This document shows positions 4,811 through 31,389 of a DNA stretch of 64,000 nucleotides, in pieces. Positions within the stretch are counted from its first letter, which is position 1. Every line of letters begins with the position of its first letter. Below the pieces are notes generated by a model. That model made no database searches. It had not been told where the DNA came from and worked only from the letters and a program-made list of their open reading frames with translations. The stretch is taken from NCBI RefSeq assembly GCF_029960785.1, contig NZ_JASBQE010000014.1:1-64000 (forward strand). The letters run 5' to 3'. The stretch is from Polyangium sp. 15x6 (GTDB lineage: Bacteria; Myxococcota_A; Polyangia; Polyangiales; Polyangiaceae). The translations under genes were made by a program, and so were the position numbers.

Positions 4811-5954
4811 GGGTCCCCTCACCGTAGGCCTTCGCGCCGTGAACGCCGATCACGAGCTGCTGGATCTGGGTACTCCCCTCGATGATCGAAAGCGCCCGCG
4901 CCTCGCGAAAGAGCATCTCCGCCACGCCTCCGTGCAACAGCCCATACGCGCCATGGACCTGGAGCGCGTCGGCCGTCACACGCGTCGCGACCCGCGCCGC
5001 GAACTGCTTCGCGATGGACGACTCGATCATCGCATCGGGGTCCCGTTTGTCGCGGAGCAAGCCCGCGTGCATGCAAAGCGCGCGCGCAGCGTGGACGTCC
5101 GTGACCGCGTCCGCGATCATTGCTTTCACGAGCTGGAACTCGTGGAGGCGCTGACCGAATTGCTCGCGCCGTCCGGCATACGTCGACATCGCCTCGAGCG
5201 CCCCCTGAGCCACGCCGACGGCCGCCCACGCGACGCTGTAGCGGCCGATGTCGAGGGCGGTCGAGCAGACGTACCGGAAACCCGCGCCGAGGCTCCCGAC
5301 GATGTTCTCCTTGGGAATGTCGACGCCGTCGAAATGGATCTCCGCCAGGTGCGAGCCCCGGCCCGCGAGGATGTCTCGAATCGGCTTCACGTGGACATTA
5401 GGCCGATCCCGCTCGACGAGGAACGCCGTCGCCTCGTCACCGCGGCGCGCGAGCACGAGGAAGACGTCCGCCATGGCGCCGAAGGTCGTCCATCGCTTGC
5501 GACCCTCGATGCGGAAGCCTCCCTCCGATGCGTCGTAGCGCGTGCGAACGTTCGCCGCGTCGCTCCCGGTCTCGGGTTCGCTCAAGGCAAACGCGCCGAC
5601 GACCTCGCCCGACGCCAGCGCGGGCAACCATGCCGCCTTCTGCGCGCGGCTCCCCCATCGAGCGAGCGTGCCCGCGACGATCGAGGCGTGTACCGTCAAC
5701 AAATATCGCGTATTGCAGCAGACTTTGCCGATCTCTTCGGTCACGAGGCCCCAGGTCACCGCGTCGAGCGGGCTCCCGCCGAGATCCGCTGGGACGAGCG
5801 CGCCAAGCAGGCCTTCGCGCCCGAGCGCCAGCACGATCTCGCGTGGCACGCCCGCCTCGTCGAATTCGGCCACGCGCGGGCGCAGCCGGGAGCTCGCGAA
5901 TGCCCGCGCGCGCCCGACCACGGCCTCCTGCTCCGCCGTCAATCGGAGCTTCAT
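4800..5954 (-). CDS. Acyl-CoA/ACP dehydrogenase (FkbI-like)
   Basis: A 384-residue flavin-dependent acyl-CoA dehydrogenase. It has the flavin-binding SEPETGSDA segment (about 128-136) and keeps the catalytic glutamate in IEGSTQIQ (about Glu359), with the typical QVHGAYG helix before it. Its start overlaps the ACP stop as ATGA. In FK520-type clusters such a protein (FkbI) oxidises the hydroxy-aldehyde or acyl intermediate on the glyceryl-derived ACP during methoxymalonyl-ACP formation, and adjacency to the ACP supports that role. An alternative is that it supplies an enoyl-CoA to the CCR encoded directly downstream (11-bp overlap). Family assignment is firm; the exact substrate is inferred from context. 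Confidence 0.9.
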
Positions 5955-6211
5955 CGGGCGAGCGTCGTGCCGAGCTTGCGCTCGATGAACGCCACGATCC
6001 TGTTCACCGTGCTGAACGTCGACACGTCGAGATCGTCGTTGTCGACGGTCACCCCGCATTCGGTCTCGACGAAGTTGACGAGCTTGAGGGCCGTCATCGA
6101 GCTCACGAAGCCGAGCTTGAAGATGTCGTCGTCGTCGCCGAGCACGGCGTTACGATGGTTCGACACCATGTTCTCCCGGATGAAGGTACGAATGGACTCG
6201 ACGGTTACCAT
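5951..6211 (-). CDS. Discrete acyl carrier protein (FkbJ-like)
   Basis: A free-standing ACP of 86 residues. The phosphopantetheine attachment motif is LGFVSSM with Ser38 as the expected modified residue. This aligns with the LGFVNS-type motif of methoxymalonate carrier proteins and differs from the GLDSL motif of the PKS ACPs in this window. It would carry the glyceryl to hydroxymalonyl to methoxymalonyl chain. The ATG at 6211 is preferred because AAGGA lies nine bases upstream; an ATG at 6217 would leave only three bases. It follows the FkbH-like gene after 41 bp and overlaps the dehydrogenase by ATGA. Confidence 0.9.
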   Translation of the reverse strand: MVTVESIRTFIRENMVSNHRNAVLGDDDDIFKLGFVSSMTALKLVNFVETECGVTVDNDDLDVSTFSTVNRIVAFIERKLGTTLAR

Positions 6212-6252
6212 GGTCATGTATCCTTTTCGTTCGAAGGGGCTCGAAGATCGAT

Positions 6253-7308
6253 TCAACCAGACGCGGGTTGCGGGGTGACCACGTCGATGTACGCCGGAAA
6301 ACCCTGGACCTGCTCGAGGTTCGCTTCGAGCACGCGTGCCCCCGCGTCACCGTCGCCCACGTCCCGGAAACCATTGAACTTGAACGCGACGTACATCGCC
6401 CGATTGCGGTCGGTGGGGACGAAATCCGCGAAGAGACGGACGCCTGCGCGCTTCGCCTCTTGCATCAGATAGCCGAGCAGGACCGTACCCACCCCGCGCG
6501 ACATCACTCGGCAAGACATGAGAAGCAGCCGGACGAACCAAGCAGATTCAGTGCGTTCCACGAGGGAGAGGCCGATCTTGCCATACGAGCCATAGACGTC
6601 GGTCAACTCGCAGATGTAGAGCCTGTGCGAATTCGACCGACGCAAGGCGTCGAGCTCGTCGTAGCTGTAGGTCCGACCCGTCGCATTGAGCTGATGCGTA
6701 CGTACGGTGAGCTCCGCCGCCCGCGCGAGATCGTCGCCTCCCGCCTCCGCGATCTTGAAGCGCATTCCGAGCCCGCTCAGGAAAGCCTCCTTCGGGCCGT
6801 CGAACGTCTCCTCCGCGCGCTTGCGTTGCTCGTCCTCGCGGTACATCTGGCGCCTGCGCGCCGAATCGGCCGTGATGAACCGAGGGATCAAGCGGCGATC
6901 GTCCAGCAGCGTGGCGTACGAATCGGCAGGCGCGACGTTGACGTCCGGGTTCGCCTTCGCGACCTCGTCACGCTCGAAAGGATCGTCGTCCACGAACAGG
7001 ATCGTGTTCATCCCGATGTTCAGAGCCTTCTGGATGCGTGCAATCGACTCGGATTTGGCGCCCCAGTGGATCTCCGGGTAGAGGAAATAATCCCACAGCC
7101 CGAGCTCCCGGAGCTTCGCGGCGGCGTCGTCGAAGTTGTTCTTGCTGGCAATGGATTGAAGAATGCCGCGTTCGTCCAGCGCGCGGATGATCCGCGCGAT
7201 CTCCGGCTTGGGCGTCAGCGGCCCCGACTCGACCAAGACGCCGTCCCAGAGCGTGTTGTCCAGATCCCAGACGACGCATTTGATGCCCTCTTCGTCGTGC
7301 TTGCTCAT
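6253..7308 (-). CDS. FkbH-like glyceryl-ACP synthase
   Basis: A 351-residue FkbH-domain protein. The N-terminal haloacid-dehalogenase fold carries DLDNTLWDG (Asp15, Asp17), SKNN as the second motif and FVDDDPFERDEV as the acidic motif. The C-terminal part (about 200-345) is the GNAT-like domain usual for this family. These proteins take 1,3-bisphosphoglycerate, remove a phosphate and load the glyceryl group on an ACP, the first step of methoxymalonyl-ACP formation; the ACP is the next gene. The ATG at 7308 overlaps the upstream stop (TGATG) and sits seven bases after AAGG. A GTG at 7311 is an equally legal start with a four-base overlap. Confidence 0.93.
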   Translation of the reverse strand: MSKHDEEGIKCVVWDLDNTLWDGVLVESGPLTPKPEIARIIRALDERGILQSIASKNNFDDAAAKLRELGLWDYFLYPEIHWGAKSESIARIQKALNIGMNTILFVDDDPFERDEVAKANPDVNVAPADSYATLLDDRRLIPRFITADSARRRQMYREDEQRKRAEETFDGPKEAFLSGLGMRFKIAEAGGDDLARAAELTVRTHQLNATGRTYSYDELDALRRSNSHRLYICELTDVYGSYGKIGLSLVERTESAWFVRLLLMSCRVMSRGVGTVLLGYLMQEAKRAGVRLFADFVPTDRNRAMYVAFKFNGFRDVGDGDAGARVLEANLEQVQGFPAYIDVVTPQPASG

Positions 7309-8177
7309 CACGGCACCTTTCCGTAGTCGAAGAAGCCCTTGCCGCTCTTCCGGCCGAGCAGCCCCGCGTCCACCATGCGGACGAGCAGCGGGCAGGGCCG
7401 GAACTTCGGATCCTTGAAGCTATCGTAGAGCACGATGAGCGACTTCAAGATGGTGTCGAGCCCGATGAGATCGCCCGTCGCCAAGGGGCCCATCTTGTGG
7501 CTGAAACCCTCGGTGAAGATCCGGTCCACCTGCGCAGGCTCTGCAATGCGATCGTGCACGACGAACGCCGCCTCGTTGATCGTCAACATCAGGATGCGGT
7601 TGGTGACGAACCCTGGGCTGTCCTGCACCACGACAGCCTCCTTGCCGAGCGAATCGAGGAGCGCCTTCGCGCGATCGATGGTCTCCACAGAGGTATGATG
7701 CCCCACAATAACCTCGACGAGCCGCTTCAGCGGGACAGGATTCAGGAAGTGCATCCCGATCGCGCGATCCGGCCGCGGCAGGAAGGAGCCGATCGTCGTG
7801 ATCGATACGCAGGACGTGTTGACCCCGAAGACAGTATCTTCGCCGCAGTACCGCCCGAGCTCCGCGAAGACCTCGCGCTTCACCGCGAGGTCTTCCACGA
7901 CGTTCTCGACCACGAAATGAACGTCGTCGAGGCCTTCGTAGCTCGTCGTGAAGCGAATGCGAGACATGATGGCATCGAGCTTCGCGCCGCCGAAACGCGC
8001 GCGGTCCATGAGCAAGACGAGCCGGAGGAGCTCCCCCATGCGCTTCTTCGAGCGTACGAGCGCGTCCTCGTGAATGTCCTTCAGGATGACGGAATGCCCG
8101 TGCGCGCTGAGATCGAATGCGAGATCGGCGCCCATGGTGCCAGCGCCGACGACGAGGACTTGCTTCCCTGTGCTCAT
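7308..8177 (-). CDS. 3-hydroxyacyl-CoA dehydrogenase-like (FkbK-like)
   Basis: A 289-residue NAD-dependent dehydrogenase. It has GAGTMG (11-16), the catalytic His in HFLNP (about His143), NTSCVSIT and DSPGFVTNR, and ends with GRKSGKGFFDYG. In methoxymalonyl-ACP pathways the FkbK homologue oxidises the alcohol of glyceryl-ACP. The ATG at 8177 forms an ATGA overlap with the methyltransferase stop and follows an AAGGAAGAG site. It lies between the methyltransferase and FkbH-like genes, which supports this role over a place in beta-oxidation. Confidence 0.92.
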   Translation of the reverse strand: MSTGKQVLVVGAGTMGADLAFDLSAHGHSVILKDIHEDALVRSKKRMGELLRLVLLMDRARFGGAKLDAIMSRIRFTTSYEGLDDVHFVVENVVEDLAVKREVFAELGRYCGEDTVFGVNTSCVSITTIGSFLPRPDRAIGMHFLNPVPLKRLVEVIVGHHTSVETIDRAKALLDSLGKEAVVVQDSPGFVTNRILMLTINEAAFVVHDRIAEPAQVDRIFTEGFSHKMGPLATGDLIGLDTILKSLIVLYDSFKDPKFRPCPLLVRMVDAGLLGRKSGKGFFDYGKVP

Positions 8178-8893
8178 TTCTCTTCCTTTGCTCGCCTGCA
8201 TACGGCGCCCATCATGTCGTAGCTGTAGCCGCGGCTCGTCTCCACCCGGACCACTTCGAGGCCTTGACCGACGAGGATCTCCTTGAACTCGGCCACCGTC
8301 CAGAGCTCACGATACCCGAGGTTCAGCTCTGGATATACCTCGTAGTAGACGCGCGAAAGCGGAGTATCCATAGGCACGAGCAAGAGGAGCATTCCGCCCT
8401 CGCGCAGGTGCTTCGTGTGTGCCCGGAGGATATCCGTCTTGTCCGCGAAGTGCTCGATGACGCCGAAGCTGCACACGACGTCATGCCGCTCGGCAGACGC
8501 GTACGTGAACAGATCCGACATCACGTAGTCTATCCTATCCTTGGTGTGGTCGTCCATGGCGTCGAACGCGCGCCGCGCCTCGGTATTGTTGTCGACGAGC
8601 CTGCCCTCCATGCCGTACTCGCTGACGAGCCACCGGGTGAGGAACCCCGTGCCGGCGCCGAGCTCGAGCACCCTCTGCCCTCGGAAATCGATTCCTCGAA
8701 GCAGGCTACGCAGCATGCGCGTGACGACGAAGGTGAACTGCGGGCGGCTCTCGCCAAGCTCTGCGCGTAGATGCAACAGAACGGCGAGCGGATCCAGTCG
8801 CCCCAAGTAATCCTCGGCGCGCATGCGGGAAAAGTAACCCGACCAATCGAACTCTCCGCCAGAATCGGCCAACATGTTGCGCGTCAGGTACAT
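8174..8893 (-). CDS. SAM-dependent O-methyltransferase (FkbG-like role)
   Basis: A 239-residue class I methyltransferase with the SAM-binding motif VLELGAGTG (75-83) and the post-motif segment SFGVIEHF. The start at 8893 is chosen because GAGGAG lies seven bases upstream; longer frames reach 9091 but would run into the monooxygenase gene and lack family similarity. It follows the monooxygenase after 55 bp. Given the four neighbours of the methoxymalonyl set, the best guess is that it methylates hydroxymalonyl-ACP. It could instead methylate the finished polyketide. Confidence 0.85.
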   Translation of the reverse strand: MYLTRNMLADSGGEFDWSGYFSRMRAEDYLGRLDPLAVLLHLRAELGESRPQFTFVVTRMLRSLLRGIDFRGQRVLELGAGTGFLTRWLVSEYGMEGRLVDNNTEARRAFDAMDDHTKDRIDYVMSDLFTYASAERHDVVCSFGVIEHFADKTDILRAHTKHLREGGMLLLLVPMDTPLSRVYYEVYPELNLGYRELWTVAEFKEILVGQGLEVVRVETSRGYSYDMMGAVCRRAKEEK

Positions 8894-8900
8894 TGGGGCA

Positions 8901-8906
8901 CTCCTC
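8901..8906 (-). promoter_or_regulatory. Shine-Dalgarno site fixing the methyltransferase start
   Basis: GAGGAG on the minus strand lies seven bases upstream of the ATG at 8893-8891. It sits in the largest gap (55 bp) of the operon, where translational coupling by overlap is absent. Confidence 0.6.
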
Positions 8907-8948
8907 GATGGGGATGACGCTCGGCGAGCGCCCTCCGCGATGTCCTTT

Positions 8949-10325
8949 TCATGCCGTCTGCCCCGTGAAATCGCGAGGGGCCGCCGACCCGGCGCGGCGC
9001 GAGGCCGCGAGAACTTCCCAGACCATCCCGGGCGATACGAGCCCGGCCGGTGAACGCAGGAGATGGGTGATCTCGAGGGTCGTCCTGGCAACCATCTCCG
9101 ACACCTGCCCAGCCCCCATCACGCGTCGCATGTAAGCGCCCAGGAGCTTCGTGGCGAAATTCGAGCCCGAGGTGCCCTTCAGCCCCTTCGTCTGCGGGAG
9201 CGTGAGATCGCCCCCGGTGGCCATCTGCCATAACATCGCAATGGGCTTCGCCGCGCGACGGTAAAATGCCTGAACGAACGCGGCGTCGGTCGCCGGGACA
9301 CGCCCGAGCGTCGCTGCGAGGGCCTCCGACTGGAGGACCGCAGACGTCATTCCCTGTCCGTAGACGGGATTCAGGCTGCAAATGGAGTCCCCGAAGAGCA
9401 GGAAGCCGTCAGGGGTGTTCTTCATCCGATCCACGCGGCGCCATTGGCTCGACGGCACCCGGTGGAAGACGATGTCGCCGAGCGACTCGGACTCCGAGAT
9501 CACGTCGGCAATGACGGGCGAAGGGAGGCTGCGCGCGAAATCGAGGAACCCCTGCTCATCGGCGGGCGGATGGTCCCCGTGGTATCCGACGAGCGTCACG
9601 ATCCACCGCGGTCCCTCCATCGGCGATGCGACGCCGAGGCGCTGCGGCGGATCGGTACCCACCATCGCGAGCCGAAAATCGCGGCGAGCGTCTTCCACCC
9701 TGCGGACCACACGGCTCGCATACCCCACGTCGACCGTGACCTCCTCGGCGTCCGGCGTCTCGAAGCCGAGCTCCGGCAGCCAGCGGACGGCGCGAGACGC
9801 GCGGCCCGTGGCATCGACGATCAGATCGGCCTCGACGAGGGAGCCGTCCTCGACCTTCACGCCCACGATGCGTCCGCCGCGCTTGCTCAAGCCGACAGCC
9901 GTCGTCCGCGGCCGGATGCTCACGCCCGGCAGGGAAGCGACGCGCCGGCGGACGTGATGTTCGAGCAATGCCCGCGAGCAGGTGGGTATGTCGAACGATG
10001 ATTCGCAGCGAATGCGCGGGGCCCCGCCGACGAACGCATACCCGTCGCGGCCATGGTTCACGAGCACGGCGCCGTCTTCGAGCAACGCGGCGCCGAGCCC
10101 GGGGAACCATCCTTCGAGCGTGCGCTGCCCGAGGCCGAGCATGGTATGATAATGACGCGCCTGGGGGACGCCGCGTCGATCGTCGGGGGTCTCGGGGATC
10201 TCGTCGCGATCGAGCACGACGACCTCGTCGAAATGCTTCGCGAGCGCCCTCGCCGCACAGAGCCCGCCCATGCTCGCGCCGATGACGACCGCCCGCTGGC
10301 GGCCCGATGCTGCTGCATTCATCAT
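8949..10325 (-). CDS. Flavin monooxygenase, MonCI/squalene-epoxidase type
   Basis: A 458-residue FAD enzyme. The N-terminal dinucleotide fold is VVIGASMGG (13-21), followed by GVPQARHYH (52-60), VDATGR (about 170-175) and [15 protein letters not shown] (312-326). From memory these segments, and their order, closely resemble the polyether epoxidases MonCI and Lsd18, a branch of the squalene-epoxidase-like flavin monooxygenases. The dedicated halogenase motif WxWxIP is absent. The inferred role is epoxidation of one polyketide alkene, possibly followed by cyclic-ether formation, as proposed for a related enzyme in ambruticin biosynthesis. The first ATG at 10325 overlaps the PKS-5 stop by ATGA; a second ATG follows at once. 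Related reductases or hydroxylases remain possible. Confidence 0.85.
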
Positions 10326-13300
10326 GCTGACCTCGTGAATGACATGGTCGTCGCGATCCACTGGTCGATGACCCTCGCGGTATCGCTCACATTGTCCGAG
10401 AGCATCGTAGCATGATCACCAGGTACGACCACGACGTCATGCGGGAGCCGCCAGGTGGCGCGCCACTCCTCCTCGACCGCGGCGCTCTGCGGCGCCTTCG
10501 CGTCGAGAATCCCCGGCAAGGGCTCGGCGACGCGCACGACCAGGGTCGGCGCGGAGATCGGCGAAGGCGCCCACGCCGCGAAGAGATCGAAATACCATAT
10601 CATCGTCGCGAGCTCGTTCGCGGTGCGCGGGTCGATCTCCATGCCGGCCGCCCATACGCGACCGAGCGCTCGTTTGAATCGCGGTGTCACCTCGTGGATC
10701 AGGTACGTATCCAGCAAAACGACCCCGGCAGGAGAGATGCCTCGACGCTCGAGCTCGCTGGCGACCGCGTGCGCGACCCATCCGCCGGAGGAACACGCGA
10801 TCAGGACGAACGGGTGGCCATCGACGCAGCGAAGGACGTTCTCGACGTGCGCGTCGATGACGGAGGCAGCGGTGCGCGGCAGAGGTTCGCCGAGCGCGAA
10901 GCCTGGGTGCGGTAAGACCCAAATATCGCGGTCGTCGCGGAGGTGCGTCGCGAAGCGAGCATACTGGATCGGGCCCGTCGGGGCCGCGAGGGACGGGAGG
11001 CAGACGAAGACGGGCGGTTTGCCCCCGTGCCCGAGGCGCACAGGGCTCGGGGCATCGATCCGGCCACTCGACGACGGCTCGATCCTGCGGCTGATACCGA
11101 GCCGGGACGCGACATCCAAGATCTCCCACGCCCGATCGGCCTCGCCCATTGCATACGCCTGCGCGAAGAGCGAGAACAGGGAGGTCTCCAGGTCGACGCC
11201 AGTCGACACGTCGCGCCCCGCGCGTCCGTCGTCGCTCGATTGCGCGGCGCCCCGCGCCGCGTCGATCCGATCCACGAGCACCGTTGCCAGCTTGTCGACC
11301 GTGGGCGCATCGAAGAGCAGCGTGGCGGGGAGCGGGATGCCGATACGCGCGCCGAGCCGCTGCCGGATCTCGACGGCCATCAAGGAGTTGAGCCCGAGCT
11401 CGAGGAAGGGCCTTTGCAATGGGATGTCACCGGGCGATCCAAGGCCGAGCCGGTCGGCGACCTCCTCGCGCACCATTTCGACGATCGCCGCCCTGCGCTC
11501 GGCCATCGGGAGCTTTTCGAGTTTTTCCCGGAGGAGCGAAGACGTCTGGACCGAATGGCTCGCGCGCGGCCGGACGAGGCTCCGCAGGATCGCGGGGACG
11601 GGTTCCTGCGAGCGTTCGAGCGTCATGCGGAGCCGCACGGGATCGAGCGCCATCGGCACCGAGAAGACATCACCACGGGCGAGCGCGGTCTCGAGCAGGC
11701 GAATGCCCTGATCCATCGACAGCGCGCCCATACCCAGGTTTGCCATCCGCTCGACGTCTGCCCTGTCGAGGTGGGAGGTCATCCCGGTCTTCGCTCCCCA
11801 GTAACCGAACGCGAGCGACGTCGCAGGGAAACCACGCGCGCGACCGTGGTGCGCGAGCGCGTCGAGAAAGACGTTGGCTGCGGCATAGTTGCTCTGCCCC
11901 GGCCCCCCGAGTGTCCCCGCGACGGACGAAAACATCACGAAGCAGCGGAGATCGAGGCCCTGCGCGAGCCGATAGAGATTCCATGCCCCGGCGATCTTGG
12001 GGGCCATCACCCGGGCGAGGCGCTCGGGGGTCACCGTGCGCAAGACGCCATCGTCGAGCACGCCGGCGCAATGAAAGATGCCACGAAGGGGCAGCGCCGC
12101 GGGCATTGCATCGAGCAGCCTGCGGGCCGCGTCTTCGTCTGCTACGTCGCAAGCGGCGACGGTCACGGTCGCGCCGAGCGCTTCGAGCTCCGCTTTGACC
12201 TCCCGAGCAGCCTCGGTTTCCACGCCGCGGCGCGAGACCAGGACGAGGTGCGAAGCCCCCTTCTCGGCGAGCCAGCGAGCCGTCAATCGCCCGAGGCCCC
12301 CGAGGCCACCGGTGACGAGGAAGGAGCCCTCGAAGGAAAGCTCGCTACCGGGCGCCGACGAATTCGATTCCGCTCGAACGAGCCTGGGGACGAGCACGCG
12401 CCCACGACGGAGGGCCACATCCGGCTCGTCCTCCCGAAAGAGCACCTCGACGAGGGCGTCGCCGTCGACGCCCGAGGGGTCGATATCCACGATACGCAGT
12501 CCGAGCTCGGGGTGCTCGTTGCGCGCGCTGCGGGCGAGCCCCCACAAGGGCGATTGCCCTAGCGCAGGCACGTCTTCCCTGCTCTCCGTCGCAATCGCGC
12601 CTCTCGTGACCCAGACGAGGCGCGCGGGCCGACGCTCGTTCGACACGAGCGCCTGCAACTCCGTGAGCGCCTCCGTGGAGAGCGCCATGGTCCGCTCGAA
12701 GAGCCCATCCCCTTCGCTCGGCGACGAAGGCCAGACGCGGAGAATCCCATCGAAGCCGGCGAGCGCGTCGAGGCTGGCCTCCTCGACCCTCACGCCTCGA
12801 CGTTCGAGCGCACGCTTCACGTCGGTCGCGAGGGCACCGCCGTCCGAAATCCATGCGAAGCGCCCGAGCGAGCCGCCCGCGCGCCGCGGCAATTCCTGCC
12901 ATGTGACGGTGTAGTCGTGTCGCTCCGCCCCACTCGCGCGACGCAGCGAGGCTTCGTCGGCCCGCTTGAGGCGAAGCCCGCGGAGCTCGCCCGCGAAAAT
13001 GCCTCGTTCGTCGTAGAGCGTGACATCCGCGCGGTGCACCTCGTCATTCTCCTTGACGCGCGTGACGCGGGCCCAGAGCGCCGTGTGCCCTTTTTGCCAG
13101 ATCTCCATCCCCTCGATCCAGAATGGCAAGTAGAGCCCGTCCTGGACCTCGCCTTGCCAGAGCCCGAGGGCGTGGAGCACACCATCGAGCAGCGCAGGAT
13201 GGATGATATGGCTCTTCGCCTCAGCGTGCCACGAAGTGTCGAGCGAGACGTTCACCCATCGCACGACGCCGTCGTCACCTCGGTCCTCGGTGAACGAGGC

Positions 13301-16300
13301 GCGCAGCGTCTGGAATCCAGGACCATATTCGAGTCCGTGCCGCCGCAATGCCTCGTAGTACCCGGCGAGCGGCTCTTGCACCGCGCCCTCCGGGGGGAGC
13401 TTCCACAATGCGGGCGGCGCCGCCTTCTCTTTCCCCGGCGGCTCGAACGCCGCCTCTGCATGCAAGACCCAGGAGAGCTGCTCCGCCTCGCGCCCGACGG
13501 GCGTGCTGTGGACGAGCACCCGGCGCGCGCCGCCGATGCCCGATGGGACGACGCTGACTTGCAGGCGGACTTCGCCGCGATCCGGCAAGACGAGCGGCGT
13601 ATGCACGAGCCCTTCGGTGAGGCTCGGATGCCCGGCGCCGCCTATCGCCTCGATCGCCGCCTCCATGAGCTCGAACAGCGCGACCGCGGGCAGCAGCGTG
13701 CGGTCGAGCACGACGTGGTCCCGGCACCAGGCCGGATCGTGGCGCGAGAGCGTCGTGTCGAAGAGCCACGCGCCGCTGTCCGCGGCTAGCCGGCCCGCCC
13801 CGAGCAAGGGGTGCTCGCTGCGGATCCAGCCCGCCGCCGCGCGCTTCTTCGTCGGCTCAATCCAGTATCGTTCCTGCTGAAACGAATACGTGGGCAGCGG
13901 GACGCGACGGCCCTTCGGCAATACACGATCGTATTTCAGCGGCAGCCCCCGCGCGTGGAGTTCGCCCCAGGAGAGGAGCATTCGCCTCGTGCCACCCTCG
14001 CCCTTGCGGAGAGACCCGACGACCGCGCCCGGTCGCCCCGATTCCTCCACGGCGGCGTGCAAGGTCAACGTCAGCGTGGGGACGGGGCTCATCTCCACGA
14101 AGAACTGATGCCCGTCTTCGAGCAGCGCTCTCGCACCGTCGGCGAAGCGTACGGTTTGCCGTACGTTCCTGTACCAGTAGTCGGGGCCGAGCTCGGCGCC
14201 GTCGACGGGCCGACCGGCGACCGTCGAATAGAACCGCACGGTCGACGAGCGCGGCGTGATGCCCGCGAGCCGATCGACGAGCGCGCCGCGGAGAGCCTCG
14301 ACCTGCGTGCCGTGCGTGGCGATGGATTCGCCCACGCGCCGCGCGAAGATATTCGCGTCGCGCAGCTCGCGCAAGAAACGGTCGAGGGCCTCGGACTTGC
14401 CGGAGACGACGGTCGATCGCGCGCTGTTGATGGCCGCGATGGCGATTTCGTCCCCGAAGCGGCGCACGCGTTCCTCGAGCTCTGCGGCGGAGAGCTCCAC
14501 GGCGGCCATGGCGCCCTGCCCCGCGAGCGGCAGGAGCGCGCGGCTGCGCAGCGCGATCACCCGGGACGCGTCCTCCAGGGAGAGCGCGCCGGCGACACAC
14601 GCCGCCGCAATCTCCCCCTGGCTGTGGCCAATGACCGCGTCGGGCTCGACGCCCATGGAGCGCCATACCGCCGCGAGGGCGACCATCATGGAGAACAACA
14701 CCGGTTGCACCACGTCGATCCGCTGCATGGATGGCGCGCCTGCATCCCCGCGGAGGACCTCGCGCAAGGACCAATCCACGTGCCGTGACAGGGCTGCCTC
14801 GCACGCATCGATCTGCTCGCGAAAGACGGTCGAGGTGGCGAGGAGCTCCCGGGCCATCTCGGCCCACTGCGAGCCCTGACCGGGAAAAACGAACGCGACC
14901 TTCCCGGAGACGTCGGCGTCGCCCGTGACGACCTCCGGGGAATGCCTCCCTTGCGCGAGCGATTCCAGGGCCGAAAGGAGCGCTTCGCGCTCGGTCGCGA
15001 CGACCACCGCGCGGCGTTCGAATTGCGTCCGCGTGGTGGCCAGCGCGTACGAGAGGTCCGGAAGGTCGATCTCCGGGTGCACGAGGAGGTGCACGCGCAG
15101 CCGGTCCGCCTGGGCGCGCAGTGCCGATTCGGTCTTCGCCGAGACGAGGAACGGTAGCCACTCCGGCCGCGGAGCGGGCGCTCCCACGGCCTCGTCGCGC
15201 GCTGCGGGCGCTGCCTCGAGGATGACGTGCGCATTCGTGCCGCTCAGGCCAAACGACGAGATGGCTGCGCGGCGGGGACGGCCCTTTTCGTGCCACGGCA
15301 CCGGCGACGTGAGGAGGCGGATCGCGCCGGAGGACCAATCCACGTGGGGCGAGGGCGACGCGGCATGGAGGGTCGCCGGCAGCACACCATGTTGCATGGC
15401 AAGCACCATCTTGACGAGGCCCGCGACGCCCGCAGCGGCCTGGGTATGGCCGAAGTTCGATTTGATGCTCCCGAGCCACAAGGGGTTCTCGTGGGAATGA
15501 GCTCGACCGTAGGTGGCGAGGAGCGCCTGGGCCTCGATGGGATCCCCGAGCTTGGTCCCCGTCCCGTGCGCCTCCACGACGTCGATGTCCCCGGGAAGAA
15601 GCCCCGCATGGCCGAGCGCCTTTCGGATCACGATCTGCTGCGCGGGACCATTCGGTGCGGTGAGCCCCTGACTCCTCCCGTCCTGGTTCAGCGCCGAGCC
15701 GCGCACGATGGCGAGCACGGGGTGCCCATTGCGCCGCGCATCGGAGAGCCGTTCGAGCAGGAGCATTCCGATGCCCTCACCCCACCCGGCGCCATCGGCC
15801 GCCGACGAGAACGGCTTGCACCGGCCATCCCGCGCAAGCACGCGCTGGCGGCTGAACTCGGTGAAGCTCGTCGGCGTCGCCATGATGGTCACGCCGCCTG
15901 CGAGGGCGAGCGCGCAATCGCCATTACGAAGCGCCTGGCAGGCCACATGAACCGCCGTGAGGGACGAGCTGCACGCCGTATCGACGGTGACGGCCGGTCC
16001 CTGGAGGCCCAGGGTGTACGAAACCCGCCCCGAGGCAATGCTGCCGCCCGTCCCCGTGGCGACCTGGCCATCGAAGGCGTCGGGCGATTGCAAGAGGTTC
16101 GCCCCGTAATCCTGGAACATGATGCCGACGAAGACGCCGGTCGTGCTGCCTTGCAAGGAGGCCGGGACGATTCCGGCATGTTCGAGGGTCTCCCAGCAGA
16201 CCTCGAGCAGGAGCCGCTGCTGCGGATCCGTTGCGGCAGCTTCGCGTGGACCAATGCCAAAAAACGCGGCGTCGAACCGATCCGCGTCGTGGACGAACCC

Positions 16301-16591
16301 CCCCTCGCGCACGTAGCTCTTTCCGCGGGCGTCGGGGTCCGGATCGTAGAGTTCCTCGACGTTCCAGCCGCGGTTCATCGGGAACGCGGAGATCGCGTCC
16401 GTCCCCGAGGCGAGCAGCCGCCAGAGGTCCTCGGGACTCCGGACGCCGCCGGGAAAACGGCAGCCCATGCCGACGATCGCGATGGGCTCGTTCGCCGCCG
16501 ACGCGAGCTCTCGATTCTGCTGGCGCAGGCGCTCGACTTCCTTCAACGCCGTACGAAGCGCGTCGACGAGTTTGTCAGGGGAGGAGCTCAT
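10322..16591 (-). CDS. Type I PKS-5: module 5 (KS-AT-DH-KR-ACP) and thioesterase
   Basis: A 2089-residue terminal PKS. An N-terminal coiled-coil docking segment (1-33, with LKEVERLR) leads into KS (34-460), AT (about 563-855), DH (925-1220), KR (1230-1690), ACP (Ser near 1737) and TE (1856-2089). It performs the last extension and releases the chain by hydrolysis or lactonisation. The AT is not of the malonyl type. The ACP is the only one here with GLNSL in place of DSL. The DH and TE active-site loops also depart from consensus. It begins inside the PKS-4 stop (ATGA), and its own stop overlaps the monooxygenase start. Details are given in the module and TE entries. Confidence 0.97.
10325..11026 (-). 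other. Thioesterase domain of PKS-5
   Basis: About 230 C-terminal residues form a PKS release thioesterase. It begins near [11 protein letters not shown], has the nucleophile in ACSSGG (Ser near 1932), the acid in LLDTY and the His in GDHATML (near 2060). The nucleophile elbow reads ACSSG in place of the usual GHSxG, but the triad appears complete. An acidic, poorly conserved linker of about 90 residues separates it from the ACP. Macrolactone formation is likely because several chain hydroxyls are available, but hydrolysis cannot be excluded. Confidence 0.85.
11027..16492 (-). other. PKS module 5: KS-AT(non-malonyl)-DH-KR(B)-ACP
   Basis: The KS has TACSSS with EAHGTGT and KSNFGH (class II, see findings). 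The AT has GHSQGE and, where malonyl enzymes read HAFH and methylmalonyl enzymes YASH, it reads IATH; the catalytic His is kept. This predicts an unusual extender, with methoxymalonyl-ACP or ethylmalonyl-CoA as candidates. The DH is of the classical family, with its first motif [12 protein letters not shown] (His near 959, with Asp where Gly is usual and Ala where PG is usual) and second motif HPALLDG (Asp near 1135). The KR has GGLGGLG, a B-type LDD and the Ser/Tyr pair. The ACP reads GLNSL. Predicted outcome: a 2-substituted enoyl ester if the DH works, otherwise a 3-hydroxy ester. Confidence 0.85.
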
Positions 16592-19500
16592 TCGTCGTTC
16601 GTCCCTTCATCCATGGCAGGCGCCGCGATCCCGAGCGCCAGCTCGATCAGCTCTTCGGCCGACATCCCGTCGATCGCTTCGGTCTCGGAGCGACCGGACG
16701 CTCCGGCGGCCTCGGTCGGGGGCCCGGCGGCGAGGTTCAGCAGCGCATCGAGGAGCCCTGCCTCGCGAAGTCGTTCGAGCGGAATCGAAGCGACCCGGCG
16801 GCGCACCTCTTCGTCCGCGAGCGACGGCGTCGCGACGGCGGGGGCGTCGTCGCCGAGGAGCTCGCCGCGCAAAAGCCGGACGAGAGCGGCAGGGCTCGGA
16901 TGATCGAAGAGGAGCGTGGCCGGTAGCCGCAGCCCGGTCGCGGCGCCGAGGCGATTTCGCAGCTCGACCGCCATCAGAGAATCCATTCCGAGCTCCTGGA
17001 GGGGTCGATTCGGCTCGACGGCGTGGCTCGGGCTGCCGAGCACGTGTCCTGCCTCTTTGCGGACGAGGTCGAGGAGGACACGCTCGCGTTCAGCCTCCGG
17101 GAGCGGAGCGAGGCGCTGCCGGAGCGACGCGGAGACCGACGAAGCGGCCGGCGCCGGCGGGCGCGCCTCCGTACGCACGAGGCCCCGCAGGACGGCAGGG
17201 ATCGCCTCGGCGCGGGCGCCGCCTGCCACCCCGATGTCGAGGCGCACCGGGACGAGCAGCGGTTCGCCACGGCCGAGGGCCGCGTCGAAGAGGGCGCATC
17301 CCTCATCGGCCGAGAGGAGCGAAAGGCCATGCCGCGAAAGACGCGCGCGATCGGCGTCGGTCATGCCCGCGGCCATGCCGCCGTCCGCCCACGGCCCCCA
17401 GGCGAGCGAGAGGGCATGTCGCCCCCGCGCCCGCCGCTGCGCCGCGAGCGCGTCGAGGAACGTATTGGCCGCGGCGTAGCTGGCCTGCCCTGCGTTGCCG
17501 AGGAGGCCGCTCAGGGACGAGAAGAGGACAAACGCCGCGAGATCATGGCCCCGCGTGCCCTCGTCGAGCGCGAGCGCGGCGTCGACCTTCGGCCAGAGCA
17601 CCTCGCTCACGCGGCGAGGGTCGAGCGACGAAAAGACGCCGTCGTCGAGCACGCCAGCCGTGTGAATGACCGCGGTGAGGGGGTGCTCCTCGGGGATGCT
17701 GTCGAGGAGCACGGCGAGGGCATTCCGATCGGCGACATCACACGCTGCAACCGTGACGCTCGCGCCCGCGGCACGTAAGGCGGCGCAAAGCTCGTCGACG
17801 CCAGGCGCCTCGGGGCCGCGACGCGAGGCGAGGACGAGGTGACGAACCCCATACCGAGAGACGAGATGCCGGGCGACGAGGCCGCCGAGCGCGCCCGTAC
17901 CTCCGCTGACGAGCACGGTGCCGTCCGGCGGGAAGATCACGGCTGGCGGGTCCGAAGTGGGTCGCGTTCGGGCGATACGCGGCACACGGAGGGTCCCGCC
18001 GCGAAGGGCGACCTGCGGCTCGCCGCTGGCGAGCGCGGCGGGCAGGGCGCGCCAAGAGGGCTGCTCGTCGTCGACGTCGACGAGCAGCAAAGCTCGTTCG
18101 GCGTGCTCCGTCTGTGCGACGCGGACGAGCCCCCAGAGGGGTGCGTGCACGAGATCGGCGACGTCCTCGCCGGTACGCGTTGCAATGGCGCTCCGGGTGA
18201 GGACGACGATGCGACAATCTTGCAGGCGCCGATCGGCGAGCGCCTTCTGGAGGAGCACGAGCGTCCGGTTCGTCTCTGCATGCACGAGGGACGCCGCGTC
18301 GCCGGACGTCGCCGGGAGCGTCATGGGGAGCACGAGGACGTCGGGCGCGCCGTCGCCCCGTTCGAGCGAGGCCTCCAGCGAAGCGACGTCGGCGTGCCAT
18401 TGCAGCCTGTCGAAGGCGAGCGCCAGCCGGGCAGAGACGGCGTCCGCGGCGTCGCCGATCACGGCCACGGCGCCCGTGCGAGCCCCTGGGAGCGAGGCGG
18501 CATCGCCGAGCTCGCTCCACGTCACATCGTAGAGGTCTCGGCGATCGGAATCGGCGAGGAACCGCTCCGCCGGCGCGCGTCGGGTGGCGAATCCATCGAC
18601 ATGGGCGACGGGGCGGCCCTCTTCGTCCCAGAACGTGAGATCGGACCGCGTGATCTCCGTCGACGCGGACGGCGCCGTCCCCAGAGCGTGCTCGACCCAG
18701 GCGGCGGGCCGCTGATCACCATACCAGACGAGCCGTTCCACGGAGAATGGCAATCGTGGGACGTCTTCTTTTGCCGGTCCGTCCGAGGCCGCGCCGCCGA
18801 GGCCGCCGCTCCAGAGACCGAGGCCGAACGCATTGTCGAGCGCGCCGCCCGGCAGGGGGCTGTCGCCGAGCGCCGTGTCCTCGGGGGAGACGAGCTTGCC
18901 GAGCGCCGCCGCCTTCCGCACGGCGACGATTTTTTCGAGCCACCACCACCGCGCGCGCCATTGGAGCTGCGTGGCTCGCAGCGCGACGCCGAGCTCGGAC
19001 AGCGGCCCCGGCGTCGGCCCCACGGGCGGAGGCGTGAACGGGGCCCGACGCGGCGCCTCGTGGTGGTGGAGCCCGCGGAGGAGGGCGGTCACGTGCGTCG
19101 TCCAGCCACCGTCGCTCCGGGTGGAGAGCGTGACGGAGAAACCGACCTCGCCCTCGAGCGGCGTGAGGTGAACGTGCAACGTGACGTGGTCGGTGACGTC
19201 GGCGAACGTCAAGACCTTGAGGAAATGGACGTCGCAGAGCTCGATGGGTCGGTCCGGGAAATGCGACGCGCCGATCGCGAGGAGGACGGACGGATAAAAC
19301 GCGCCTGCGATGACGATGCGATCGTAGACGAGGTGTCCGTCGAGGTACGGCTGGACGCCCGGCCCGATTTCGACGGTGTGGAGAATGGATCCGTCGGGGA
19401 GATCCATCCGGGCACCGGCGAGGCGATACCGTCCAGCGGGCACACCTCCGGGCATCGCCGGTCGCTGGGGGACGTCGATCCAGTGCCGCTCTCGCTGGAA

Positions 19501-22128
19501 GGCATACGTGGGCAGCGCGACGCGGCGCGGACGGGCATCCGCGAAGAACGCGGACCAATCGACGCGGTGCCCCCGGGCGCAGAGCCCCGCGAGTGCCGAC
19601 GTCAGGCTCTCGGGCTCGGGGACGTCCTTGCGCAGGACGGGGAAAAACGCGGCGTCACGCTCGTCGAGCAAGCACGCGGGGCCGAGGCCGCTGAGCACAC
19701 CCCTCGGGCCGAGCTCGACGTACGTGGTGACGTGGTCCGCCGCGAGGGTCTGCATGCCATCACGAAAGCGCACCGCGCGTCGCGCATGCTCGACCCAGTA
19801 TCGCACCGAGCAGAGCTCCTCCACGGTCGCGTGTTTGCCCGAGAGGTTCGAGACGATCGGAATGCAGGGCGCGTGGAACGTCACCCCCGAAACGACGCGG
19901 CGGAACGCGTCGAGCATCCCGTCCATGCGCGGTGAGTGGAATGCGTGCGAGACCTGAAGTTTCGTCGCCTTCCGCCCGAGCGCGCGGGCCACGTCGGCGA
20001 CGGCGAGCACGGCGTCCTCGTCGCCCGCGACGACGGTGGCCTCCGGACCATTCAGGGCGGCGATCTCGGCCCGACCTTCGAGGCCGGCGAGCCACGCCTT
20101 CGCCTCCTCCTCGGTCGCGCGCAAGGAGACCATCGCGCCGCCCAGAGGCAAAGCTTGCATCAGCCTGCCGCGCGCGGCGACGACGGTACAGGCGTCTTCG
20201 AGCGACAGGACACCGGCGACGTGCGCAGCCACGAGCTCCCCGATCGAATGCCCCAAGAGCACGTCCGGCTCGACCCCGAAGGACTCGAACAGCCGGTACA
20301 ACGCGACCTCCAGGGCGAAGAGCGCGGGCTGGGCATACATCGTCGCGTCGAGCAGGCGCGAGGTCGCGGAGTTTTCTTCGGCGAACAGCACCTCTCGCAG
20401 GGGAACGTCGAGCGTCCCGTCGAAATGGGCGCACGCAGCGTCGAGGGCGTCGCGATACACGGAATACGTCGCGTATAGCGTCCGCCCCATCCCCGGCTGC
20501 TGACTGCCTTGGCCCGTGAACAAGAAGGCGAGTTTGCCCCCACGGTCCTCTCCCCCGATCGTCGCGCAGGAAGGCGTCTCTCCCCGTCCCACGGCGCCGA
20601 GTGCGTCGAGGAGGACAGCACGATCCTCCGCGACGATCGCTGCGCGGTATTCGTGGAGCGTCCGCGTCGTCGCCATCGAGAAGGCCACGTCGGCGAGCTC
20701 GACCTCGGGCTTCGCTACGAGGTGCGCCAAGAGCTGCGCCGCCTGAGCGCGCAATGCGGCCGGCGTCCTGCCAGAAACGAGGAACGGCAGCCACTGCGGG
20801 GCACTCGGTCGAGGCGCGTCCGCGGCCCGCGCGTCGGCTCTGGGCGGCTCTTCCAGGATGACGTGCGCGTTCGTCCCGCTCAAGCCGAAGGCGGAGACGC
20901 CCGCACGGCGCACGTGCCCGCCGTCGGATCGAGCCCAGGGAACCGATTCGTCGACCACACGAACCGGCAGGGCGTCCCAGTCGATGTGCGGGTTGCGCGG
21001 CGTCGTGTGCAGCGTGGCCGGCAGCGCATCGTGTCCGAACGAGGCGATGATCTTCGCTACGCCCGCGAGGCCAGCGGCAGCCTCCAGGTGACCCATGCTG
21101 GTCTTGACGGCCCCGAGAAGCAACGGGCGCGCAAGCCCCCGTCCCGGACCATACACCGCGGCGAGCGCCTGCACTTCGATGGGATCGCCGAGCGAGGTAC
21201 CCGTGCCGTGGCATTCGATCACGTCGACCTCGCCGGGCGAGAGGCGCGCGTCCTCCAGCGCGGCGCGCAGCACCTTCTGCTGCGAGGTCCCGTTCGGCGC
21301 GGTGATGCCGCTGCTCGCGCCGTCGTGATTGACGGCGCTGCCGCGGACGATGGCGAGGATCTCGCGACCACGCGCGAGCGCGTCGTCGAGGCGTTCGAGC
21401 GCGAGAACGACGACGCCTTCGCCCCGGCCATATCCATCCGCCTCCGCGGAGAACGTCTTCGACCGGCCGTCCTTCGCGAGCGCGCGCGTGCGCGATAGCA
21501 GGACGAACGCCTCGGGAGCCGCCATCACCTGCACGCCGCCCGCGAGCGCGAGGTCACACTCCCCTCGCCGCAACGACTGGCACGCGAGGTGAAGAGCGAC
21601 GAGCGACGACGAGCAAGCCGTGTCGAGCGACAATGCGGGCCCTTGCAGCCCGAGGGTGAACGCGACCCGCCCCGCGGCAAACGAGGCGTGCGTGCCGAGG
21701 ACCGCGTACGCCTCGCCCTCCTGGGCCGCGGCGTGGAGGACGTTGTAATCGCTCGGGCCGATCCCGACGAAGACCCCGGTCTGGGAGTCCTTCAACGCGG
21801 AGGGGACCGTGCCGGCGCTCTCCAGCGCCTCCCACGCGGCCTCCAAGAGCAGCCGATGCTGCGGATCGATGTTCTTTGCTTCGCGCGGGCTGATACCGAA
21901 GAAGGCCGCGTCGAAGAGGTCCACCTGGTCGAGGAACGCCGCCTCGCGGACGTAACTCTTGCCCTTCGCGTCGGGATCGGGATCGTAGAGCGCATCCATG
22001 TCCCACCGGGCCTTCGGGACGGGCCCCACGGCGTCCGCACCTCGCGAGAGGAAGCGGAAGTAGCTCGGGAGATCCACGACGCCCCCGGGCAAACGCAGCC
22101 CGATGCCGACGATCGCAATGGGCGCGCC
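16588..22128 (-). other. PKS module 4C: KS-AT(malonyl)-DH-KR(B)-ACP
   Basis: KS about 3090-3515 with TACSSS, ECHGTGT (class I) and KTSMGH, where Ser replaces the usual Asn. AT 3617-3905 with HAFH. DH about 3983-4276 belongs to the epothilone-like family, with [11 protein letters not shown] (His near 4018) and LDNAFG as the Asp motif; the Gly of HxxxG is Asp here. KR 4285-4745 has GGTGALG near 4496 and LDD (B type). ACP GMDSL has Ser near 4801. It is followed by the docking segment. Predicted: an E-alkene if the DH is active. Confidence 0.87.
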
Positions 22129-25100
22129 CTCGGCAGACGTTCCCGCCTGCCCGCTGCCCGTAGGCTCGGTCGAACCGACCGGCGGCGCGAGAAGGCCGAG
22201 CAGGTAGGTCGCGACGCCTTCGGGGGATGGGTGGTCGAACGTCAACGTCGCCGGCAAACGCGCGCCGGTGGCTTGCTGGAGTCGACCGCGTAGCTCCACG
22301 CTCGTGAGCGAATCCAGCCCGAGGTCCATGAACCCCGTGCGCGCGTCGAGCCGGGATGCATCGGGATGACCCAGGACGGCCGCCGTTTCGCCGAGCACGA
22401 GGCCCACCAAGCGCGGCGCGCGGTCCTTCTCCGCGAGCGCACGGAGCTCGAGGGCAAACGCGGACGGCGAGCCGTCCGGCCGCCGGTCCGTCCGGGCGCC
22501 TTCGAGAGCCGCGCGCGCTTCTGGAAGATCGCCGAGGAGCGGGCGCGCCCTCGCCGCGGCGAACGACGGGGCAAACAGGGCCCAGTCGACGTCCGCCACG
22601 ATGGCGGCGATGTCCTCCCCCACCAGCACGCGCTCCAGGGCCGAGAGGGCCCTCGCAGGCGCCATCGCGCGGAGCCCACGGCGGCGCAGGAACTCCGCGG
22701 CGCCCGGCTCGGAGGCCATGCCACTCCCGGCCCACGGGCCCCACGCCACGGACAGGCCGGGGAGGCCCTGGCCGCGGCGGTGTTCGACGAGCGCGTCGAG
22801 GAAAGCGTTCGCGGCCCCGTAAGCGCCCTGGTTCCCGCTCCCCCACACCCCGGCGATCGAGGAGAACAGCACGAAAGCATCGAGCGGCGTTCCCGAGAGC
22901 GCCTCGTGGAGATGCCACGCGCCCGCCGCCTTGCCCGAGACCACCTCCGCAAGATCCTCTGCGCTCGTCTGCATGAGCGGCTTCTGCTCGAGGACGCCCG
23001 CGGCGTGGAAGACCGCTCTGAGGGGAGGTGCCGTGGTTCGAAGACGCTCGCAGAGCGCCGCGACGGCGGCTCGATCGGACGTGTCGCACGAAAGGATCGT
23101 CACCCGCGCGCCGAACGCCGTGAGCTCCGCCTCGAGCTCCAGCGCCCCCGGCGTTTGGCTTCCTCGACGGCTCGTCAACACCAGGTGCGTGGCGCCCTTC
23201 CCCGCCAGCCAGCGTGCGACCTCGGCGCCGAGCGCGCCCGTGCCTCCGGTGATCAGGATCGTCCCCTCGGGCACGAAGGCGCGGCGGGCGGCGGCCCCAT
23301 CCTCCTCCTCCACGCGCGCGAGCCGACGCACGTAAATGCCCGTCGCGCGCACCGCGAGCTCGGTCTCCGCGCCGATGCCGGAGAGCGCCAGCCCAAGGCG
23401 CTGCCGTCCCCGGTCGTCGAGCGCGAACGGCACGTCGATGAGCCCACCCCAGCGCTCCGGATGCTCCAGCGCCGCGACGCGCCCGAGACCCCACACGAGT
23501 GATGGCATCGGACGCCGCAGCGGATCCGACCGACCGATGCTCACCGAGCCGCTCGTCACCACCCAGAGCGGCGCCTCGACGCCGGCGTCCCCGAGGGCCT
23601 GCAACAAGCCGAGCATCCGCGTCGCGCCTCGCAGGAGGACAGGCTCGCCCTCCGGCGAACCCTCCTCCTCGGCGAGAAGCAAGACGACCCCTCGCGGAGA
23701 TCGCGCGTCCGTCAGGGCCTCGCGGAGCTGCGCGCCGATTCGACCTCGACCCTCGTCGGTCCTCGACAAACCGAGGGAGACGACGCGCGCGCCCGTCTCC
23801 ACGAGTGCGGCGCGTATCGCGGTATGCAGCGCGCTCCCGACGCCGGCGGCATCGACCACGACCAGCCACGGCCCGTCCGCGGGGCGCGCGTCATGGTGCT
23901 CGAGCGGCCGCCAGACGACGCGATAACGAAGCGCCGCGAGGCTCGATTGCTCCTGCTGCGCCTTCCGCCACCTCGCGAGCACCGGCATCGCCGCGCCGAG
24001 TGCCGCGCGATGGGGCTCGTCTGCGACGTCGAGCATGGCCGTGAGGGTGGGCAGATCCTCGCGCTCGACCGCCGCCCAGAGGCCTGCCTCGGCCGCCGAC
24101 GTGGCGCTCGTGGCCGTGGCGCCATCGCCGCGGGGCTTGGCGCCATCCAGCCAGCAGCGCTCCATCTGGAAGGCGTACGTCGGCAGCGCCACGCGTCGCG
24201 GGCCGAACGGCGCGAAAAACGCGCGCCAATCGACCGCGACGCCATTCGCATGGAGACCTCCGAGCGCCGCCACGACCGCCGCTACCTCGGGGGTCTCCTT
24301 GCGCAGCACGGGGAAAAACGCCGCGCCGCCGTCCCCGGACAGGCACGCCGGTCCGAGCGCGCTCAGCGTTCCCCGGGGGCCGAGCTCGAGGTACGCCCGG
24401 ACCCCGCCCTCGGCGAGGCAACGCATGCCGTCGTGCCAGCGGACGGCGCTCCGCACGTGCCGGACCCAGTACTCCGTGGACTGGATCTCCTCGGCGGTCG
24501 CGCGTTTGCCCGTGAGGTTCGAGACGATCGGGATGCGAGGCTGATCGCGCCGCACGCCCTCCACGACGCGCCGGAAGGCGTCCAGCATCCCCTCCATGCG
24601 CGGCGAGTGGAACGCATGCGAGACCGCAAGCCGCGTCGCCCTGCGCCCGTGCGTGCGTGCATGTTCGGCCACGGCGAGGACCGCATCCTCGTCCCCGGCG
24701 ACGACGGTGGCCTCCGGACCGTTCAGCGCCGCGATGTCCACACGACCCGCCTGCGACGCGAGCCAGCCGCGCGCCTCTTCCTCGCTCGCCTGCAAGGCGA
24801 CCATCGCGCCGCCTTCGGGCAGCTCGCCCATGAGCCTGGCCCTGGCCGCGACGACGGTGCAGGCATCCTCGAGCGTGAAGACGCCCGCGACATGGGCCGC
24901 GACGAGCTCGCCGATCGAATGACCCATGAGCACGTCCGGCGTGACGCCGAAGGACGCGACGAGCCGATACAGCGCGACTTCCAGCGCGAACAGGGCCGGC
25001 TGTGTGTAGGTCGTCCGATCGAGCAGGCTGGCCTCGGGCGTGCCCTCCTGAGCGAACAGGACATCGCGCAGCGGGCGATCGAGGAGTTTGTCGAAGTGCG

Positions 25101-31100: not shown

Positions 31101-31389
31101 CGCCCTCGCGCACGTAACTCTTGCCGCGCGCGTCCGGGTCCTGATCGAAGAGCGACTCGAGGTCCCACCCGCGGTTCTCCGGGAAGCCGCCGATCGCGTC
31201 CTTGCCCGCGTCGACGAGATCCCAAAGCTCCTCGGGCGAGGACACGCCGCCCGGGTAACGGCAGCTCATCCCGACGATCGCGATCGGCTCGTGCCACCGA
31301 TCCTCGACCTCCGCAAGGCGCTCGCGCGTCTGCCGGAAGGCCGTGGTCAGCCGCTCGAGATAGACCCGAAGCTTCTGCTCCTCGCTCAT
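16588..31389 (-). CDS. Type I PKS-4: three modules (4A, 4B, 4C)
   Basis: A 4933-residue PKS arranged as docking helix (1-32), 4A KS-AT-KR-ACP, 4B KS-AT-KR-ACP, 4C KS-AT-DH-KR-ACP and a C-terminal docking segment (about 4850-4933). All three ATs carry HAFH (malonyl). The two KR-only modules should install consecutive hydroxyls and 4C an alkene. The N-terminal docking helix differs from those of PKS-3 and PKS-5. The C-terminal one ([16 protein letters not shown], then LLDALLNLA) resembles that of PKS-2. Both gene junctions are ATGA overlaps, so it is translationally coupled to PKS-3 and PKS-5. Confidence 0.97.
22129..26799 (-). other. PKS module 4B: KS-AT(malonyl)-KR(A)-ACP
   Basis: KS about 1531-1955 with TACSSS, ECHGTGT and KTNIGH (class I). 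AT 2062-2350 with GHSIGE and HAFH (malonyl). A helical linker ([10 protein letters not shown]...) replaces a DH. KR about 2487-2950 has GGTGALG near 2715 and GVWGSG (A type). ACP GLDSLT has Ser near 3027. Predicted: a second beta-hydroxy, giving a 1,3-diol with module 4A. Confidence 0.9.
26800..31293 (-). other. PKS module 4A: KS-AT(malonyl)-KR(A)-ACP
   Basis: KS about 33-455 with TACSSS, EAHGTGT and KSNIGH (class II). AT 564-850 with GHSIGE and HAFH, malonyl-specific. No dehydratase lies between AT and KR. KR about 930-1400 has GGTGALG near 1158, no LDD and a Trp in [10 protein letters not shown] (A type), with Tyr in [16 protein letters not shown] has Ser near 1465. Predicted product step: a beta-hydroxy (L-type) on an unbranched unit. 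Confidence 0.9.

Follow-up and report, generated by a model that had tools for sequence, protein, structure and literature searches.

A rare IATH motif in the terminal acyltransferase of a Polyangium polyketide synthase and its possible extender unit

Prediction of the extender unit loaded by an acyltransferase (AT) is a weak point of polyketide synthase (PKS) structure prediction, and the present locus raises that question for an AT whose specificity motif reads IATH. The window, that is, the whole stretch of DNA that was analysed, comprised the first 64000 bases of contig C55, which is 182 kb long and belongs to a genome of 13.4 Mb. All large PKS genes were on the minus strand, and their order gave an assembly line of eleven modules.

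61921-70098 of C55 (61921-64000 inside the window, the rest outside), minus strand: PksA, module 1, ACP-KS-AT-AT-DH-ER-KR-ACP
42342-62018, minus strand: PksB, modules 2-5, HAFH three times followed by FASH; uncertain start codon and an overlap with PksA
44637-45590, minus strand: AT of module 5, FASH
31386-42332, minus strand: PksC, modules 6-7, HAFH twice, both modules DH-KR
16588-31389, minus strand: PksD, modules 8-10, HAFH three times
10322-16591, minus strand: PksE, terminal module 11, 2089 residues, KS-AT-DH-KR-ACP-TE, from the open reading frame and Pfam domains

The Pfam domains of PksE included a docking domain and a thioesterase, and the motifs DTACSSS, HPALLD and GLNSLM were present. 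Eight of the ten ATs in the window, those of modules 2-4 and 6-10, combined GHSIGE with HAFH; the remaining two carried GHSQGE, with FASH in module 5 and IATH in module 11. The original prediction had assigned the IATH AT to module 5. Its reading of the motifs, IATH with GHSQGE, was confirmed, but the module number was rejected: by gene order the domain belongs to PksE, module 11 of 11, and the AT of module 5 reads FASH.

Module 1 held two ATs, one with FAAH (GHSMGE, starter-like) and one with VATH (GHSQGE). The former (L009:7936, at about 67.9 kb of C55) is more likely to be a starter AT than a methoxymalonyl AT; FAAH has been given as the motif of one predicted methoxymalonyl AT (PMC8944477).

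The module-11 AT was mapped as follows.

13946-14893, minus strand: AT domain of module 11 (PF00698 Acyl_transf_1, E 4.6e-87)
14612-14629, minus strand: nucleophile motif GHSQGE with Ser657 of PksE
14312-14338, minus strand: small-subunit specificity motif RVGESIATH, with IATH proper at 14312-14323 and the catalytic His760

The ten-residue specificity segment of the original prediction was located at 14303-14332 on the minus strand. The distance from Ser to His was 103 residues in the IATH AT and likewise in all ten ATs of PksB-PksE in the window, and IATH is therefore the real specificity site. Ser657, His760 and an Arg at +25 from the Ser, which we take to have the carboxylate role, were all present, in agreement with the pattern of modular PKS ATs (a GHSxG Ser, a His about 100 residues later, and the Arg), and by these residues the domain qualifies as an extender-loading AT. 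By the same residues it counts as an active cis-AT that acts on a dicarboxylic extender. Of the methylmalonyl-specific signature, GHSQGE was retained and V/D/Y/S were replaced by E/S/I/T; the malonyl-specific signature (GHSIGE/GHSLGE-type with HAFH) was absent. Set against the alkyl-type motifs TAGH, RAGH, VASH and CPTH, IATH had no exact match and shared its Thr with CPTH. The domain was 93% identical to its ortholog in the sister species Polyangium sp. y55x31.

A further substitution was seen at Val837 of PksE (14081-14083, minus strand), 180 residues after the AT Ser, where SPVP replaces the His of SPHP. This His was kept in 53 of 54 YASH ATs, and the Val recurred in the module-11 AT of the sister species.

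The frequency of the motif was assessed in a sample of 253 distinct GHSxGE ATs (109 from the phylum, including the ten of the window, 35 from named genomes, 89 from plasmids and 20 from actinobacterial genomes reached through loci). ATs without GHSxGE, with stops or too near a locus end were left out, as were duplicates identical over about 200 residues; 16 of the 253 ATs had no locatable motif and were retained in the denominator. Because its members were picked for similarity and for proximity to FkbH genes, the sample was not random and was biased to relatives and FkbH-bearing genomes. Within this biased sample, Thr directly before the catalytic His (xATH) occurred in 4/253 distinct ATs and 4/105 GHSQGE ATs, all four being the IATH and VATH ATs of the cluster and their orthologs in Polyangium sp. 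y55x31. The earlier description of the signature as rare was thus borne out: for xATH the word is safe, and the exact rate is not, given the bias. A limited literature search found no earlier description of an IATH motif in polyketide ATs. The VATH domain, with KLHFNVATH and GHSQGE, lies outside the window at C55:65899-66852 (L009, GHSQGE at about 6592).

At the equivalents of EryAT6 positions 742, 743, 744 and 746, the 105 GHSQGE ATs had V in 75, D in 77, Y in 76 and S in 93 cases; these counts are taken from the 105, the Y and S of a 54-row comparison being 100% by choice of rows. The IATH AT reads E/S/I/T at these positions, the VATH AT F/N/V/T and the FASH AT of module 5 V/D/F/S, so that IATH and VATH are both altered at the same four small-subunit positions. 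E or F at 742 was found among the 105 only in the xATH ATs. According to the available text of one study of EryAT6, the small-subunit motif has a stronger influence on the extender chosen than the large-subunit one; Y744R and S746G act together, and D743E or S746G singly had little effect (PMC13351777). Motif changes had a partial effect in epothilone AT4 (PMC8058987), and in FkbB AT4, an allyl/ethylmalonyl AT, a change of CPTH to VASH is described as without effect in the available part of the source (PMC6090053). The rule on which the original prediction relied, HAFH for malonyl and YASH for methylmalonyl, proved too simple here: EPOAT7 of epothilone reads VASH and is treated as methylmalonyl-type (PMC8058987), and of the 29 distinct GHSMGE ATs sampled in the phylum of the window, 23 read VASH.

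The origin of the IATH AT was examined in a quick tree of 115 rows, drawn from 188 ATs by taking GHSQGE and GHSMGE rows that were long enough and had a located motif, with two rows for GHSVGE ATs and two for PDB entries added. IATH fell into a clade (SH-aLRT 88) made up of 27 GHSQGE ATs, of which 25 were from its own family and 17 read YASH. Its best non-orthologous matches showed 58-62% identity and for the most part read YASH (62% and 61% in genome G005, about 60% in G036; the top match by score read VASH, another LASH). Given this mostly YASH, own-family clade and these nearest matches, the IATH AT is best read as a rebuilt descendant of the methylmalonyl-type GHSQGE ATs of its own family, in which an RVRVDYASH-like small-subunit motif would have become RVGESIATH. 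In a careful tree of 34 rows VATH paired with FASH (81/86), and a joint clade of IATH and VATH was not rejected (AU p 0.41), so that one shared origin of their Thr, instead of convergence, is possible.

The large-subunit motif of the module-11 AT, RIDVVQP, is one that we take to be methylmalonyl-like. Together with the mostly YASH matches, this motif is what would be expected if the AT still loaded methylmalonyl-CoA and IATH were drift inside the methylmalonyl clade, as is the partial role of the YASH motif in determining specificity (PMC13351777, PMC8058987). Drift fits poorly with the change of four usually conserved residues in two ATs, in both species, when the module-5 AT was altered there only from Y to F, and retention of methylmalonyl is considered quite unlikely.

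The genes that directly follow PksE lie on the same strand, with frames that overlap or are close.

8949-10361, minus strand: FAD-dependent oxidoreductase, probably a tailoring enzyme; frame overlapping with adjacent genes, uncertain start codon, 90% identical in the sister species
8174-9091, minus strand: SAM methyltransferase, probable hydroxymalonyl-ACP O-methyltransferase, substrate assigned from position
7308-8201, minus strand: 3-hydroxyacyl-CoA dehydrogenase family (FkbK-like), with homologs in five other cassettes
6253-7311, minus strand: FkbH-like HAD-IIIC protein for glyceryl transfer to ACP (TIGR01686 267.9 bits, cut-off 146.65)
5951-6256, minus strand: free ACP, probable glyceryl/methoxymalonyl carrier (PF00550 26.6 bits)
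4800-6059, minus strand: acyl-CoA dehydrogenase belonging to the methoxymalonyl set; true start probably internal to this frame
3536-4822, minus strand: crotonyl-CoA carboxylase/reductase (CCR; TIGR01751 563.9 bits)

At the gene level, the expectation that the cluster makes at least one non-standard extender was supported by a methoxymalonyl-ACP set beside PksE, in which the methyltransferase has a presumed role. Identities with Polyangium sp. y55x31 were 92% for the CCR, 94% for the acyl-CoA dehydrogenase, 93% for the ACP, 93% for FkbH, 96% for the 3-hydroxyacyl-CoA dehydrogenase and 89% for the methyltransferase. The free ACP was 43-45% identical to the free ACPs of four other cassettes, and among the best 80 loci listed in a genome scan with FkbH, one alone (L103) was near-identical (93%), the others reaching 51-61%. 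The methyltransferase gave 12 weak PDB matches, including the malonyl-ACP O-methyltransferase 8x8i (E 8e-4), and searches of five other myxobacterial cassettes revealed no homolog; its probable function as a hydroxymalonyl-ACP O-methyltransferase thus rests on gene position. A cytochrome P450, probably a tailoring enzyme, was encoded at 976-2208 of the window (minus strand). The cluster may extend past the start of the window, since the window begins at a contig end.

The best solved-structure matches of the CCR were AntE. Within the genus a CCR (E up to 1e-100) was found in two of six genomes, exactly the two that hold this cluster, and its ten best relatives elsewhere were 60-70% identical. 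One related gene adjoins clpA in genome G032 and another lies two open reading frames from clpA in G011; these genomes gave one and two AT matches, respectively, so the CCRs there serve no such PKS. In a third genome, G024, the two open reading frames flanking the CCR gave no family at E 1e-60. The clpA neighbours and the few ATs suggest that the cluster recruited a housekeeping-type CCR, which is the likely source of a second unusual extender. With a methoxymalonyl-ACP gene set and a CCR in one operon, two unusual extenders are plausible for the assembly line, which probably uses both.

We favour methoxymalonyl, supplied by the free ACP, as the substrate of the IATH AT, with a probability of about 0.45; this figure and the gradings of the other substrates are judgements and not computed values. 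The free ACP from the adjoining genes would deliver methoxymalonyl to the module-11 AT, which would load it onto the module-11 ACP. The DH and KR of the module would then yield a 2-methoxy-2-enoyl chain, to be freed by the TE, probably as a macrolactone. In support, the supply gene set adjoins the gene of the IATH module, and a terminal module with a DH is also the setting of the methoxymalonyl assignment in bafilomycin (PMC3679948). The Thr of IATH does not widen the pocket, an effect that Gly may have in several alkyl ATs. In addition, the ethylmalonyl motif reported in X-14952B is FASH (PMC8365161); module 5 could thus accommodate the CCR product, and the methoxy unit would be left to the two xATH ATs. 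Against methoxymalonyl stand the lack of a close characterised match for the methyltransferase, the occurrence of Thr at the third place in an allyl/ethylmalonyl AT (CPTH of FkbB AT4), the slight effect of single D743E and S746G changes in EryAT6, and the competitors within the cluster, namely VATH in module 1 and the CCR; as the latter is in the same gene run, the two extenders cannot be told apart by gene position.

The presence of these competitors leads to a different assignment, in which the substrate of IATH would be the CCR product, either ethylmalonyl-CoA or an alkylmalonyl-CoA of slightly greater length, and VATH of module 1 or FASH of module 5 would receive methoxymalonyl. The gene run includes the CCR, which within the genus was found (E up to 1e-100) only in the two cluster-bearing members; its AntE matches, and its relatives near clpA in genomes with so few ATs, point the same way. 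Exotic alkylmalonyl ATs are known to alter the YASH site, to SPGH and VASH (PMC6490886), and one alkylmalonyl AT, with CPTH, has the Thr (PMC6090053). Several alkyl ATs, however, have Gly at the third place (TylAT5 with TAGH; CinAT1 and ThaAT13 in PMC13351777), and Thr is larger, not smaller; moreover, FASH may take the ethylmalonyl unit (PMC8365161). Loading of the CCR product by IATH is accordingly regarded as unlikely, if with a real chance of being correct.

It is improbable, and the weakest of the substrates considered, that the unit accepted by IATH is hydroxymalonyl-ACP without its methyl group or some other polar one, or that the AT is promiscuous. The motif does contain the polar Glu and Ser, the Glu at 742 being found in 2/105 GHSQGE ATs, which are orthologs of each other, and the methyltransferase assignment is weak; yet the methyltransferase is encoded within the gene run and is 89% identical in the sister species.

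Methoxymalonyl AT motifs have been described as poorly defined, and MadAVI AT13 reads YASH (PMC7489565), which makes the motif at this site a poor predictor for methoxymalonyl. Module 12 of bafilomycin was assigned to methoxymalonyl from the product structure, and the available part of that description found no distinct motif (PMC3679948). No link of a CASH motif with methoxymalonyl ATs was found in the literature searched. ATs associated with FkbH served as an inferred reference set, with presumed substrates: of ten from FkbH-bearing actinobacteria, four (L130, L187, L188 and L190) had FkbH within their own plasmid region or locus, and six had only the genome in common with it. In the 115-row tree IATH did not group with these ten, nor with two myxobacterial GHSVGE ATs about 10 kb from cassettes (G000:C210 and G036). 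All 12 of these ATs had Ala at the 742 equivalent, which IATH lacks, and both observations count against methoxymalonyl; the same Ala was found in two RAGH ATs. Ala at 742 is a possible marker of methoxymalonyl ATs. The ATs of L130, L187, L188, L190, L193, L194, L198, L199, L203 and L207 formed one clade with a motif of the type DD-D-CGKL-A-[V/C/M]-A-[S/A]-H.

One of the myxobacterial cassettes belongs to a second PKS cluster of the genome that holds the window (L097:1409, G000:C210), with FkbH, ACP, acyl-CoA dehydrogenase and 3-hydroxyacyl-CoA dehydrogenase homologs. The AT about 10 kb from it has GHSVGE with FCGAGVADVASHTPRM, and carries FAPHGSQW instead of FPGQGSQW; in the tree it is closest to a similar AT, L094 (G036:C1:7201023-7202567), about 12 kb from an FkbH gene. 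A second FkbH domain on the contig of the window (G000:C55:105200-106162, about 98 kb away) lies inside a frame of 3288 residues, has matches in similar long frames of genomes G004 and G001, and is a separate system. On a Streptomyces albidoflavus plasmid (NZ_CP109227.1; L183, L186, L187), a methoxymalonyl-type cassette and CCR genes were found in one cluster, in which consecutive RAGH and CASH ATs share one gene; by analogy, this cluster is an actinobacterial parallel to the proposed two-extender arrangement.

Among known systems, the GHSQGE/YASH methylmalonyl-type ATs gave the best PDB match to the IATH AT (7s6b/7s6c, Lsd14), which we take to be of lasalocid origin and to use methylmalonyl. 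They share with it PF00698, GHSQGE, the His at +103 and the Arg at +25, but have PVDYASH and an SPHP-type site where the IATH AT has GESIATH and SPVP. The third best distinct PDB match was a tylosin AT (TAGH, 8jpu, from tylactone synthase modules 4 and 5; TylAT5), presumably specific for ethylmalonyl, in which the Y and S positions are changed as in IATH; unlike IATH, it has Gly at the third place and groups with actinobacterial ATs in trees. The ATs from FkbH-bearing actinobacteria (CASH/VASH/MAAH with CGKL-A), whose substrates are presumed, fall within the same GHSQGE superclade as IATH but in a separate clade marked by the Ala at 742. Two further systems were compared by description. Bafilomycin module 12 is likewise a terminal module with a DH, with its cassette just downstream of the PKS genes, but unlike module 11 here its AT has no distinct motif in the available account (PMC3679948). 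FkbB AT4 of FK506 shares GHSQGE and the Thr before the catalytic His with IATH, from which it differs in a Pro at the second place and in its alkylmalonyl substrates (PMC6090053). Lanyamycin was ruled out as the product of the cluster, since its structure would require an amide unit and many methyl branches (PMC6037015).

A bolder proposal, and a doubtful one, is that modules 1 and 11 share an unrecognised small-subunit code, [E/F]-[S/N]-[I/V]-A-T-H, that would select methoxymalonyl-ACP within the family of the source organism and would have been reached from methylmalonyl ATs separately from the CGKL-A-VASH actinobacterial and the GHSVGE CG...AD-VASH myxobacterial types. If this were true, methoxymalonyl selection would be an evolvable trait, reached in at least three ways.

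The IATH AT is a real and unusual motif in a coherent context, a prediction and not a new kind of biology, and methoxymalonyl is a reasonable but unproven substrate for it. Two supply systems, two ATs with the same four changes and a conservative sister AT together make a compact natural test set, and the locus points to a Polyangium macrolide not yet characterised, possibly ending in a 2-methoxy-enoate.
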